From the NCBI RefSeq assembly GCF_000156175.1, contig NZ_GG692710.1, forward strand, positions 956,932 through 994,316: 37,385 nt of DNA. The letters run 5' to 3'. Position numbers and translations under genes: made by a program. Shown piece after piece: positions 14,695 through 18,749 of this stretch. The notes under the pieces were generated by a model, which was not told the DNA's origin, ran no database searches, and worked only from the letters and a program-made list of their open reading frames with translations. The number at the start of each line of letters is the position of its first letter. Position 1 is the first letter of the stretch. This DNA comes from Collinsella intestinalis DSM 13280 (GTDB lineage: Bacteria; Actinomycetota; Coriobacteriia; Coriobacteriales; Coriobacteriaceae).

Positions 14695-14719
14695 GCAATT
14701 TGCACCTGTCCCCAATTGC
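14695..14719 (+). repeat. REP-like dispersed repeat, copy 1
   Basis: A 25-base motif with core TTTGCACCTGTCCCCAATTG, whose ends CAATT/AATTG are complementary. It lies between the htrA stop and its terminator. Four further copies lie at 16461, 18643, 18725 and 20753. Confidence 0.75.
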
Positions 14720-14733
14720 GTCGGGGCAGGGCG

Positions 14734-16236
14734 TTAGCGCAGCGCGCCGCCCATGTACTCCTCGAGATAGCGGAAGAACTCCTCGCGGCTCATGCCGGTT
14801 CCGGCACCGGGGCCGTCGGACGTGTCCTCCTGCTCGGCCTGCAGGGCCTCATCCGACCCAAGCGTCACCTTGACCTCGGTTTCATCCTTGCCTCGCACGA
14901 CCGTCAAGGTCACCTCGTCACCCACCTCATGCTCACGCAAGGCGATGATCAGGCCGTCCGCCGAGGCGATACCCTCGCCGTCGACGGCGGTGACGATGTC
15001 GCCCTTCTGGATACCCGCCTGGGCAGCCGGGCCGTCGGCGGTGACCTCCGCCACATAAGCGCCGCTATCGACCGCCAGCTCGTTCGTGCGGGCGTTGTAG
15101 GCATTTACGCTCATCAGGGAAACTCCCAGGTACGGATGGACCGGAGTCTCACCATCGATGATCTGGTTGGCGATGTTAATGGCGTAGTTCACCGGGATCG
15201 CAAAGCCAACGCCCGAGCTGGAGCCAGAATAGGACTCGATGACCGAGTTGATGCCGATGAGATGCCCCTCATCGTTGACAAGCGCACCGCCGGAGTTACC
15301 GGGGTTAATGGCCGCATCGGTCTGGATCATGTTCGCGTAGATGGACGTACCGCTCGCGCTCTGCAGGGCGGTGGAACGGTAGAGCGCGGAGACGATACCC
15401 GTGGACACGGACTGCTCGTTGCCGAAGGGACTGCCAATGGCCATGACCCACTCGCCCACCGCGATGTCGTCGGAATCGCCGACCTCGATGGGGGTGAGCT
15501 TGGCGCTCTTGGGATCCTTGAGGCGAATGACCGCCAGGTCGCTGGACTCGTCCGCGCCGACGAGCTCCGCCTCGTAGCTGTTGCCGTCATCGGTGTTCAC
15601 CACGAGCGCGGTCGCACCCTGGACGACGTGATGGTTCGTGAGGATATTGCCGTCTGTGTCCAAAATCACGCCACTGCCGATACCACCGGAGTTCTCATCC
15701 TCGCCCTGGGCGGTGATGGACACGACGGAGGGCAGCGCCTTTGCCGCCACGGCCTCGGACAGCGTGGTGTCCTCGGGGTTGATGTCGATCTTCTGCGGGG
15801 TGCCGGAGGTGCCGGCAGTCTCGACGTTCGAATCGGTGATACGGAACGCGCCAGACATGACGAGAGCGATAACCAGCACCGCACCGACCACCAGGCCGGC
15901 GAAGGACGCCAGGAAGATGGGAAGCTTCTTGCTCTTGGTCTTGACCACGGTGCGGGTCTCGGTATACGTGGACGCATGGGCCTGCGCGTTCTGGCCAGCG
16001 ACATGCTGACCCTGGGAATACGAGTAATCCACCGGAGGGACCTGGCGGGTGGAGCCAGCGGCGGTGGGGTTGCCGGGATCGACGGGGATGTGCGCCGTGG
16101 TATGGGCGCTTGCATTGCCAGGCGCAGCACCTGCGGGCTCGACGGGCGTGGGCTCGACCTCGAGACGCGGCTGCGAGGACGGGCGTTGCTCCGATCCAAG
16201 GCCCTCGGGGCGCTGAGGGGTCTTTTCTTCACTCAT
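14734..16236 (-). CDS. htrA: HtrA/DegP-family serine protease, membrane-anchored, one PDZ domain
   Basis: A 500-aa envelope quality-control protease. Residues 1-100 are a Pro/Ala/Gln-rich cytoplasmic tail and 105-130 one transmembrane helix (FLASFAGLVVGAVLVIALV). The trypsin-like domain carries the triad His203 (LTNHHVV), Asp233 (SSDLAVIRL) and Ser315 (NPGNSGGALV). A single PDZ domain runs from about 368 to 475 (GVSLMSV...AGIQKGDIVTAVDG). The long disordered N-terminus is typical of actinobacterial and Gram-positive HtrA proteins. Start ATG 16236 follows GAAAGGA. A possible promoter TTGAGA-N17-ACAACT lies around 16320-16350 on the minus strand, weakly supported. It ends in its own terminator. 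Confidence 0.92.
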   Translation of the reverse strand: MSEEKTPQRPEGLGSEQRPSSQPRLEVEPTPVEPAGAAPGNASAHTTAHIPVDPGNPTAAGSTRQVPPVDYSYSQGQHVAGQNAQAHASTYTETRTVVKTKSKKLPIFLASFAGLVVGAVLVIALVMSGAFRITDSNVETAGTSGTPQKIDINPEDTTLSEAVAAKALPSVVSITAQGEDENSGGIGSGVILDTDGNILTNHHVVQGATALVVNTDDGNSYEAELVGADESSDLAVIRLKDPKSAKLTPIEVGDSDDIAVGEWVMAIGSPFGNEQSVSTGIVSALYRSTALQSASGTSIYANMIQTDAAINPGNSGGALVNDEGHLIGINSVIESYSGSSSGVGFAIPVNYAINIANQIIDGETPVHPYLGVSLMSVNAYNARTNELAVDSGAYVAEVTADGPAAQAGIQKGDIVTAVDGEGIASADGLIIALREHEVGDEVTLTVVRGKDETEVKVTLGSDEALQAEQEDTSDGPGAGTGMSREEFFRYLEEYMGGALR

Positions 16237-16460
16237 GAACGGTCCTTTCAACGTCTTAATTCTCCAACGTTGTACCCCAAAAGCGCAGCTCCGCTCAGCA
16301 CGAGCGACGGAGCTTAATCAAGTTGTAAGTTGCGTTAAGGATTTCTCAAGCGTCTTGTTCTGAGGTGCAATCGCTTCGCAGCGCTGCGTGAGACGCCGCG
16401 ATTTGCGCTGGTATGATTCGCGCCCGCCCCTCCACTTGGAACGATAATCGACACCGCGGC

Positions 16461-16504: not shown

Positions 16505-17167
16505 CTACTCCTTGAAGAGGTAGCCGACGCCGCGGACGGTGGTGATATGCGCGGCGATAAGGGGACCGACTTTGCTGCGGATACGGCGGATGTGAACGTC
16601 CACGGTACGGGTGCCCCCGCAGTACTCGAAACCCCATACGCGATGCAGCAGGACCTCTCGACTGTACGCGCGATTGGGGTGCGTGGCCAAAAAGCTCAGC
16701 AGCGAATACTCCATGAGCGTGAGGTCGACAGGCTCGCCATCGAGCGACACCTGGTAGGTGGCAAGGTTGATAGTGAGGTTATCCACGGTGAGCACCTCAT
16801 CGACCGGAACGGCCTCGCACTCGCCCAAAAGCTGGCGTGCGCGGACCTCAAGCTCGGCATCTCCCGCGCCCGAGCAGATGAAATCGGAGCGGACCCGGGA
16901 GGGAAGGCGCATCTCGGCGATATCTTCCTCATCGACGACCAGCAGCATGGGCGCTCCACCGCGCGACTCGAGCCACTTGGCCATGGCATCCACACGATCG
17001 GGGCGAACGCCGTCGGCGTCGAGAACCAACAGGTCGAAGTCGTGCGCCGCTGCAGGCGAATCGGGCGTGGCAACGTGCACCTCGACGCCGAGAGACGTCG
17101 AGAGCGTCCTGATGAAGTCATGCAGCCGCGTAGTACGGGCCATGAACAGCACTGTCTTTTCCGCCAT
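16505..17167 (-). CDS. GlnR-like orphan response regulator (OmpR/PhoB winged helix)
   Basis: A 220-aa protein. Residues 1-115 form a degenerate receiver: the acidic pocket of normal receivers is absent (VLFMARTTR instead of ILVVDDD), and Asp50 lies in DLLVLDADG, the same position as the single Asp kept in actinobacterial GlnR. Residues 122-220 are an OmpR-type winged helix with VWGFEYCGGTRTVDVHIRRI and TTVRGVGYLF, very like GlnR. No histidine kinase adjoins it. It starts 61 bases after the glnA-like stop (RBS GGAGGTGAG), so it is likely co-transcribed with it. A GTAAC-N6-GAAAC site upstream of the pair supports a nitrogen-control role. The name GlnR is inference. Confidence 0.85.
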   Translation of the reverse strand: MAEKTVLFMARTTRLHDFIRTLSTSLGVEVHVATPDSPAAAHDFDLLVLDADGVRPDRVDAMAKWLESRGGAPMLLVVDEEDIAEMRLPSRVRSDFICSGAGDAELEVRARQLLGECEAVPVDEVLTVDNLTINLATYQVSLDGEPVDLTLMEYSLLSFLATHPNRAYSREVLLHRVWGFEYCGGTRTVDVHIRRIRSKVGPLIAAHITTVRGVGYLFKE

Positions 17168-17228: not shown

Positions 17229-18566
17229 TTACGAATTGGCCAGGTAGTGCCTGAGCTCCCACTCGGTGACCGTCGAGTTGAAACGCTCCCATTCCGCGCG
17301 CTTCTTCTTGAGGAAGAACGAGTGGATATGCTCACCCAGGGCGTCCTTCATGAAGTCGGAGCTCTCGAACACATCAAGCGCCTCGTCGAGATTGCTCGGC
17401 AGGGGCTCGATGCCGCGGGCGCGCAACTCGGACTCCGGCAAGCGTAGCAGCTCGGAGGTTGCCTCCTCGGGCAACTCGAGCCCACGCTTGATACCGTCCA
17501 GGCCAGCGGCAAGCGTCACCGTATTCACCAGATACGGGTTTGCCATCGGGTCGGGGCTGCGGAGCTCAATGCGGGCCGCAGCCTGCTTACCGGGCTTGTA
17601 GATGGGCACGCGGATCATGGCAGCGCGGTTGCGCATGCCCCACGTGGCAAAGCGCGGGCCGTTGCCCGCACCGGCGGACAGGCGCTTGTAGGAGTTCACC
17701 GTGGGGTTGGTGATGGCGCTGATCTCGGACGCATGGGCGAGGATGCCGGCCATGTAGCTCTTGGCGATCGACGACAGGTGGTTTTGCGAATCGTCGCCCC
17801 AGAACACGTTGTTGCCCTCGCGGTCGAATAGCGACTGGTGCAAAAACATCGCCGAGGACGAGCCCTTGGCGATGGGCTTGGGCATGAAACTGGCATGGAT
17901 GCCGGCCTCGTAGGCGCATGTGCTGATCACGTGCTTGGCCGTCATGATCGCATCGGACATGGTGAGGGCTTCGGCATGGCGCATCGAGATACCGTGCTGC
18001 GAGTGTCCGGAGCTGTGGAAGGTGTACTCGATGGGGATACTCATCTTCTCGAGCATGAGCACCGTGGAGCGGCGCAGGTCGCGAGCGGAGTCGGACGGCG
18101 AGAGGTCGAAATAACCCACGGCGTCCAACGGCTCGGGGGTACGCTCGTCGGGGAAGTAGTAAAACTCCAGTTCGGCACCAACGTTCATGATGTAGCCGAG
18201 CTTCTCGGCGCGATAGAACATGCGGCGCAGGCACTCTCGGGAATCGCCGGCAAACCGCTGGCGATCAGGGGTGCACGCATCGCAGAAGATGCGAGCCGCG
18301 CCGTCGCGCGTAGGGCGCCAAGGCAGGATCTGGAAGGTCGAGGGATCGGGAAAAGCCAGCATGTCCGCCTCGTCGGGCGTGGTGAAGCCCTCAATGGCCG
18401 AGCCGTCGAAGCCGATGCCCTCCTCAAACGCGACCTCGAGATCCTCTGGGCTGATGGCGAAGCTCTTGAGGCGGCCGAGCACATCGGTGAACCACAGGCG
18501 GATGAAGCGGATGTCGCGCTCCTCGACGGTGCGCAGGACAAAGTCGATGTACTGCTGCTGATCCAT
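17229..18566 (-). CDS. Glutamine synthetase homologue (GSI-alpha size) with altered active site
   Basis: A 445-aa protein that aligns end to end with bacterial type I glutamine synthetase: GFDGSAIEGF (52-61), AELEFYYF with Glu132/Glu134, NPTVNSYKRL (287-296), NRAAMIRVP (313-321), RIELRSPDP with Glu334. Length and the missing adenylylation segment fit GSI-alpha. However the HHEVAPGQHE block is FHSSGHSQHG (183-192) and NGSGMH is SSSAMF (236-241). Three of the six Mn/Mg ligands (equivalents of E212, E220 and H269 in Salmonella GS) are therefore Ser, Gly and Phe, and the glutamate-binding NG is lost. Classical catalysis is doubtful. It could be a regulator, act on another substrate, or be a remodelled GS. 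ATG 18566 follows GAAAGG. Followed by the GlnR-like gene. Confidence 0.85.
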   Translation of the reverse strand: MDQQQYIDFVLRTVEERDIRFIRLWFTDVLGRLKSFAISPEDLEVAFEEGIGFDGSAIEGFTTPDEADMLAFPDPSTFQILPWRPTRDGAARIFCDACTPDRQRFAGDSRECLRRMFYRAEKLGYIMNVGAELEFYYFPDERTPEPLDAVGYFDLSPSDSARDLRRSTVLMLEKMSIPIEYTFHSSGHSQHGISMRHAEALTMSDAIMTAKHVISTCAYEAGIHASFMPKPIAKGSSSAMFLHQSLFDREGNNVFWGDDSQNHLSSIAKSYMAGILAHASEISAITNPTVNSYKRLSAGAGNGPRFATWGMRNRAAMIRVPIYKPGKQAAARIELRSPDPMANPYLVNTVTLAAGLDGIKRGLELPEEATSELLRLPESELRARGIEPLPSNLDEALDVFESSDFMKDALGEHIHSFFLKKKRAEWERFNSTVTEWELRHYLANS

Positions 18567-18621
18567 TGCCAGACCTTTCACAAAGCACGGTTGCTGCGAC
18601 TTCCCATAGTCGCACACGTAT

Positions 18622-18637
18622 GTTTCAACGCGGTTAC
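18622..18637 (-). promoter_or_regulatory. Candidate GlnR box upstream of the glnA-like gene
   Basis: Minus-strand GTAAC-CGCGTT-GAAAC matches the actinobacterial GlnR consensus pair GTnAC-N6-GAAAC exactly. It lies 56-71 bases upstream of the start, where an activator or repressor would bind. A third half-site six bases on (GTGCG) is not a match. Confidence 0.55.
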
Positions 18638-18642
18638 ACCTC

Positions 18643-18664
18643 ATTTGGGGACAGGTGCAAATTG
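18643..18664 (-). repeat. REP-like dispersed repeat, copy 3
   Basis: ATTTGGGGACAGGTGCAAAT plus TG; reverse orientation to copy 4 at 18725. The two can pair over 20 bases (18 matches), forming a doublet between fbp and the glnA-like gene. Confidence 0.75.
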
Positions 18665-18724
18665 GGACATTCACCGCGCTCAAGCACGGGTCGCGCCGCC
18701 CGCCCTCCATGGGGCGAAATGCCT

Positions 18725-18749
18725 CAATCTGTACCTGTCCCCAATTGGC
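18725..18749 (+). repeat. REP-like dispersed repeat, copy 4
   Basis: CAATCTGTACCTGTCCCCAA followed by TTGGC, facing copy 3 across 60 bases. It ends 3 bases from the fbp stop codon, so the copy 3/4 stem could serve as an RNA 3' end. Confidence 0.75.

Follow-up and report, generated by a model that had tools for sequence, protein, structure and literature searches.

What keeps a glutamine synthetase (GS) in a bacterial genome once the residues needed for its reaction have gone? The question is raised by a gene in the window, the whole stretch of 37,385 nucleotides analysed here from Collinsella intestinalis DSM 13280, which encodes a type I GS (GSI)-like protein of 445 amino acids with a degenerate catalytic site (17229..18566 on the minus strand, stop included, with the ATG at 18566) and was delimited from its open reading frame and from matches to GS structures, Pfam and the GlnA model. 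The answer that we favour, with a probability of roughly 0.6, is that this protein is a GSI pseudoenzyme, retained because it serves the adjacent regulator GlnR as a sensor or as a partner in regulation.

The protein has retained the GSI fold, as the first-pass annotation held: GS structures align with residues 9-443 (E 8e-117) and Pfam finds both Gln-synt_N and Gln-synt_C, which places it in GSI by sequence and domain content. Ligands and contacts are numbered here as in the Salmonella enzyme. Among the six metal ligands of type I GS (E129, E131, E212, E220, H269 and E357), three are missing (E212S, E220G and H269F in the Collinsella protein), so that the set is incomplete. In the alignment, FHSSGHSQHG at residues 183-192 (17991..18020, minus strand) replaces HHEVAPSQHE, and SSSAMF at residues 236-241 (17844..17861, minus strand) replaces NGSGMH with the loss of N264, G265 and H269; both motifs, and the change of the glutamate-contacting Asn-Gly to Ser-Ser, are exactly as first annotated, and E132, E134 and E334, in the numbering of the Collinsella protein itself, do remain. 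In addition, the former flap now reads SAGAGNGPR (17652..17678, minus strand), in which AGAGNGP lacks Glu327, the feedback residue Arg62 has become Thr, and Ser53 has become Ala. A description of the protein as altered in one half of the bifunnel proves only roughly right. The losses take in two n1 ligands (E212 and E220), one n2 ligand (H269), the flap and the contact to glutamate, but spare the arginines for phosphate and glutamate handling. An AlphaFold2 model built on a Collinsella alignment was poor (mean pLDDT 51) and supports no structural argument or fold search.

GS proteins were compared across the genus, two sister families, f2 (probably Atopobiaceae) and f3 (presumably of the Eggerthellaceae type), the rest of the class, and named genomes, among which the nearest relatives of the gene belong to Collinsella sp., C. 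stercoris and C. tanakaei. E212, E220, H269 and N264 are absent from all 38 distinct Coriobacteriaceae proteins and all 30 sampled f2 proteins; in the 14 canonical outgroup orthologues every tabulated catalytic residue is present. The changes are thus shared, and sequencing error, by which the canonical motifs would have been restored on resequencing, is rejected as their cause, since the same losses recur in 38 distinct proteins. Within Coriobacteriaceae, E212 is replaced by Ser or Ala, E220 by Gly, and H269 by Phe, Leu or Met, and the flap Glu is gone, while 23 of the 30 f2 proteins still have it. D50, R321, R339, R355 and R359 are retained in all 68 proteins of the two families. Scores against the NCBI model for GlnA (TIGR00653, curated cut-off 429.15 bits) were 406 bits for the window protein, 405 for f2 and 541 for a canonical outgroup protein, and the model rejects the first two and accepts the f3 and outgroup proteins.

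Only nine of the 184 sites that are invariant in 30 outgroup GSI proteins have changed throughout Coriobacteriaceae and f2, yet metal ligands account for three of the nine (hypergeometric P 0.0015), so the pattern of loss is not one of chance. A quick tree separates the Coriobacteriales proteins from the outgroup (98) and groups Coriobacteriaceae with f2 (100). Because family f3 has kept its metal ligands but no longer has N264 (27 of its 30 proteins carry Pro there), this topology suggests that N264 was likely lost first and the metal ligands later, and the f3 protein may well still be an enzyme. Two f3 proteins of genus g18 (L148 and L149) lack E129 and the flap Glu, with E212, E220 and H269 present; their genomes (G239 and G212) gave no GSIII match and may possibly be without any active GS. 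Elsewhere in Coriobacteriia, a second GSI paralogue carries AGSGMH (N264A) with its metal ligands kept (L043-L062), and a GlnR box is found at 9 of the 16 loci of this paralogue in outgroup genomes.

Selection has continued to act on the altered protein. As estimated by the Nei-Gojobori method, dN/dS is ~0.02-0.06 for close Collinsella pairs, with medians of 0.23 in Coriobacteriaceae and a higher 0.38 in f2, the values for distant pairs being indicative only. All 42 good genomes of the genus contain the gene, with intact, full-length frames at nearly all loci, and on these grounds a pseudogene reading is rejected. It is likewise highly improbable that the gene is functionless and decaying, retained merely by its place in the glnR transcript; the loss of catalytic residues after the acquisition of type III GS and the higher dN/dS of f2 would fit such decay, but strong purifying selection between close species, the full-length frames, a conserved promoter box, and the fact that 79 of the 184 anciently invariant sites remain unchanged in both families speak against it.

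Moreover, the replacement residues are themselves conserved, as position 220 is Gly in 38 of 38 Coriobacteriaceae proteins and S185, S186, G187, S189 and Q190 are invariant across 20 aligned Collinsella proteins. The E327 flap, by contrast, which is nearly invariant in canonical orthologues (0.11 bits), ranks with the most variable stretches of the Coriobacteriaceae protein; it shows indels between species and an entropy of 1.81 bits, where the mean over the protein is 0.53. A conserved pocket beside a free flap fits a protein that would have lost catalysis and retained the pocket for another purpose. With homology kept, catalytic residues lost and purifying selection in force, the identification as a GSI pseudoenzyme is well supported on comparative sequence grounds, and we infer that the protein no longer carries out the ligation.

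The first-pass annotation proposed either a new substrate or a regulatory role. On the former view, the main rival, the protein would be a gamma-glutamyl ligase whose substrate has changed. It would still bind ATP, by way of one metal and the arginines that remain, and would couple glutamate, or some other carboxylate, to an amine of an unusual kind that the importer might deliver. R321, R339, R355, R359, E131 and E357 are retained in nearly all members, the replaced pocket positions are conserved, and an amino-acid importer lies in the same operon in most f2 genomes. The ligases GlnA2, GlnA3, GlnA4, PuuA and PauA7 are also of GSI fold with altered substrate-site residues, and the N264P of f3 occurs as well in GlnA2, an active Streptomyces ligase (PMC8998196). 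However, GlnA4 and PauA7, whose ligands are listed in PMC6529630, keep all six metal ligands together with those for ATP and glutamate and are changed at the ammonium site, whereas here three metal ligands and the glutamate contact N264 are gone in every member and the flap is unconstrained in Coriobacteriaceae. Because GlnA4 and PauA7 keep all six, a ligase of changed substrate is rated lower and appears unlikely. The regulatory half of the proposal is the one supported, by linkage to GlnR throughout the class, by the GlnR boxes and by the strictness with which the two genes occur together.

If the pseudoenzyme no longer makes glutamine, the supply would come from elsewhere. A canonical GS is indeed present in the window genome (1.81 Mb, 99.96% complete), as had been raised as a possibility, but it is a type III enzyme, GlnN (HNEVAPCQHE, NGSGKH; L002/L161), and no other GS accompanies it; glutamine is thus predicted to be supplied by GlnN. 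GSIII_N is found in 213 of 215 Coriobacteriales genomes versus 2 of 83 other members of the class, a distribution by which catalytic loss accompanies GSIII acquisition. The glnN promoter of the window genome contains no GlnR box. A DUF711 gene lies directly upstream of glnN in this genome (L161:5295-6683, minus strand).

The suggested coupling to a GlnR-type regulator is borne out by the neighbouring gene, 61 bp downstream of the GS-like gene (16505..17167, minus strand), which encodes an OmpR-type GlnR-like regulator of 220 amino acids with an atypical receiver. Its best solved relatives in the OmpR family are 8hig and 8hih (E 1e-30, versus 5e-22 for RegX3), which we take to be actinobacterial GlnR structures, their PDB entry names being generic. 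By Pfam the regulator is of the Trans_reg_C/OmpR type, and its GlnR_1st score of 24.7 bits falls just below the cut-off of 27. The acidic pair typical of receivers is missing, and f3 does not conserve the Asp; with so atypical a receiver, a histidine kinase is not expected. The protein terminates straight after the winged helix and has no C-terminal tail.

GlnR lies immediately 3' of GS at 30 of 30 loci in the genus, 30 of 30 in f3 and 13 of 14 canonical outgroup loci. Family f2 has GlnR directly downstream in a minority of loci; in most of the others GlnR follows on the same strand after a gap of 3-6 kb. In the four loci examined, the gap is occupied by genes for a family-3 substrate-binding protein, a permease and a GlnQ-like ATPase, which together make up an amino-acid ABC importer, and a substrate-binding gene of this importer type follows GS at ~21 of 30 f2 loci. 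In most Collinsella loci (L123-L146), as in the window (14734-16251), glnR is followed by a gene for an HtrA-type serine protease.

Co-occurrence was assessed in 298 genomes of the class, 215 of which are Coriobacteriales. Within the order, 205 genomes have both the GS gene and GlnR, ten have neither, and none has only one. Eight of the ten contain GSIII alone (G132, G257, G265, G266, G272, G276, G279 and G303) and yielded no GlnR orthologue, their best OmpR matches having E values of 3e-27 or worse versus 3e-47 or better elsewhere; the other two, G163 and G296, have a different type of GS (34-39% identity) and neither partner. One apparent exception, G267, was rejected as a GS-like gene without GlnR, since the contig ends inside its GlnR gene. 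Contrasts within genera (g21, g25 and g69), together with f6 and further cases, suggest that the two genes were lost jointly about five times, each time independently. Part of this co-occurrence reflects linkage, as adjacent genes can be lost in one deletion. Outside Coriobacteriales, canonical GS is found without GlnR (for example in G052, G113 and G129), as expected for an enzyme with a task of its own. The strict linkage may not be confined to catalytically dead versions either, given that the f3 protein keeps its metal ligands and is perhaps catalytic.

The promoter ties the two genes together as well. The actinobacterial GlnR a-b box has the form GTnAC-n6-GnAAC (PMC10704036), and a match to it, GTAACCGCGTTGAAACA, is located 54 bp upstream of the GS-like ATG (18621..18637, minus strand), where 0.03 matches are expected by chance within the window. 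A box precedes GS at 28 of 38 Coriobacteriaceae loci, 22 of 29 in f2, 11 of 30 in f3 and 14 of 14 in the canonical outgroup, versus one match to the reversed motif across all loci sets. Immediately upstream of the box lies an inverted repeat (18642-18747) with 30-nt arms of 83% complementarity that contains GGGGACAGG; a further CCTGTCCCCAA occurs at 14705, a similar stretch is found at the same place in L123, and the repeat resembles a mobile element of small size or a REP-like one.

A genome-wide search, conducted with consensus patterns only, returned four matches in the 1.81-Mb window genome, one before the GS-like gene and one in front of an amino-acid importer, ~100 bp from its substrate-binding gene. 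This importer is homologous to the importer of the f2 GS-glnR loci (66% identity for the permease, 51% for the binding protein and 86% for the ATPase) and sits elsewhere in the genome, away from the GS-like gene. The match at L155/L159 was set aside as looking like chance, and that near LivJ (L158), on the opposite strand, as doubtful. A box combined with an extended -10 element occurs essentially only before the GS-like gene, a pattern too strict to define the regulon, and amtB is unusable as a GlnR-target control because the window genome has no ammonium transporter. Predicted boxes thus stand upstream of nitrogen genes, as is characteristic of GlnR, and the GS-like-glnR operon and the importer likely share a GlnR regulon. 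The importer permease (L160:3214-4623, minus strand) has ~200 residues ahead of its membrane domain that give no Pfam match and are present in f2 homologues too.

A box of this kind would indicate that GlnR controls the GS-like gene and says nothing of the reverse direction. The pseudoenzyme might regulate some other target, such as the ABC importer or GlnN, with GlnR just controlling its expression. Boxes do precede both the GS-like gene and the importer, and importer genes follow the GS-like gene at most f2 loci. It is GlnR, however, that always accompanies the GS-like gene, while the importer lies elsewhere in the Collinsella genome examined and GlnN persists in genomes without the GS-GlnR pair, and a target other than GlnR seems quite unlikely.

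The reading of the pseudoenzyme as a partner of GlnR can be cast as a sequence of events. The GS-like protein would descend from the enzyme of an ancestral glnA-glnR operon, and the formation of gamma-glutamyl phosphate would have been lost in the ancestor of Coriobacteriaceae and f2 after GlnN took over glutamine synthesis, the protein being retained through its work with the adjacent OmpR-type GlnR. Most likely, the altered, conserved pocket of the GS-like oligomer would bind a metabolite of nitrogen, be it glutamine, glutamate or a nucleotide, and its ligand state would decide whether GlnR is bound or released; GlnR would then set a small regulon of its own GS-like-glnR operon and the amino-acid ABC importer. 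The sequences show that catalytic residues were lost while purifying selection went on, that the gene is linked to and co-occurs with GlnR, that GlnR boxes are present and that the importer is linked as well; the physical contact with GlnR, the ligand and the direction of regulation are what we infer.

Among the closest known relatives of this arrangement is the canonical glnA-glnR operon of other Coriobacteriia, whose GlnA also precedes GlnR behind the same promoter box and is 53-57% identical to the window copy, of the same length and without the GSI-beta insert; unlike the window copy, which scores below the GlnA cut-off, it has the full set of metal ligands together with N264, R62 and the flap Glu. 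Another GSI-derived protein, lengsin of the vertebrate lens (PDB 2j9i), has reportedly been re-engineered by evolution for another role, according to a title cited in PMC3829961. It differs from the Collinsella protein in being eukaryotic, in its lens role and in having no regulator partner, and it matches the window protein weakly in sequence (E 2.7e-8).

In Bacillus, GlnR is a MerR-type repressor. There, feedback-inhibited GS binds GlnR and activates repression, and the GS-GlnR/TnrA system resembles the present one in that GS shares an operon with a nitrogen regulator called GlnR and has been proposed as a sensor (PMC9249791). The two regulators are unrelated, however, and that of Bacillus has a C-terminal tail that enters an active GS, whereas the Collinsella regulator is OmpR-type and tailless and its GS-like neighbour has lost R62 and the catalytic residues, so that none of the marks of a Bacillus-type pair (MerR-type regulator, GS-binding tail, R62) is found. 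Without tail and R62 the Bacillus mechanism cannot apply unchanged, and any contact must differ, perhaps being made through the receiver.

The OmpR-type GlnR of Streptomyces, Mycobacterium and Amycolatopsis is similar in sequence, in its atypical receiver and in its a-b box, but no co-localised sensory gene is known in these genera, and how it receives the nitrogen signal was stated to be unknown in a 2023 review (PMC10704036). Here, unlike in those model genera, a GS-derived candidate sensor gene is fixed beside glnR. A tentative extension, to which we give clearly less than even odds, is that GS-derived proteins are the missing nitrogen sensor of OmpR-type GlnR, in which case the GS-GlnR contact would be ancestral in Coriobacteriia and the Coriobacteriaceae and f2 version, stripped of catalysis, would only sense. 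If the sensor reading is true, GS may signal to GlnR in other Actinobacteria too; and as evolution has already split catalysis from any regulatory role, sensing could be tested here free of enzyme activity. The locus is also a clear example of how a central metabolic enzyme has turned into a pseudoenzyme in entire families of bacteria common in the gut, and many of the copies are probably annotated simply as glutamine synthetase. Each component has a precedent, lengsin as a non-enzyme derived from GS and the Bacillus enzyme as a GS that partners a regulator. No description of a bacterial GSI pseudoenzyme fixed beside an OmpR-type GlnR across two families, or of a GS pseudoenzyme in Coriobacteriia, was found in the open-licence papers searched.
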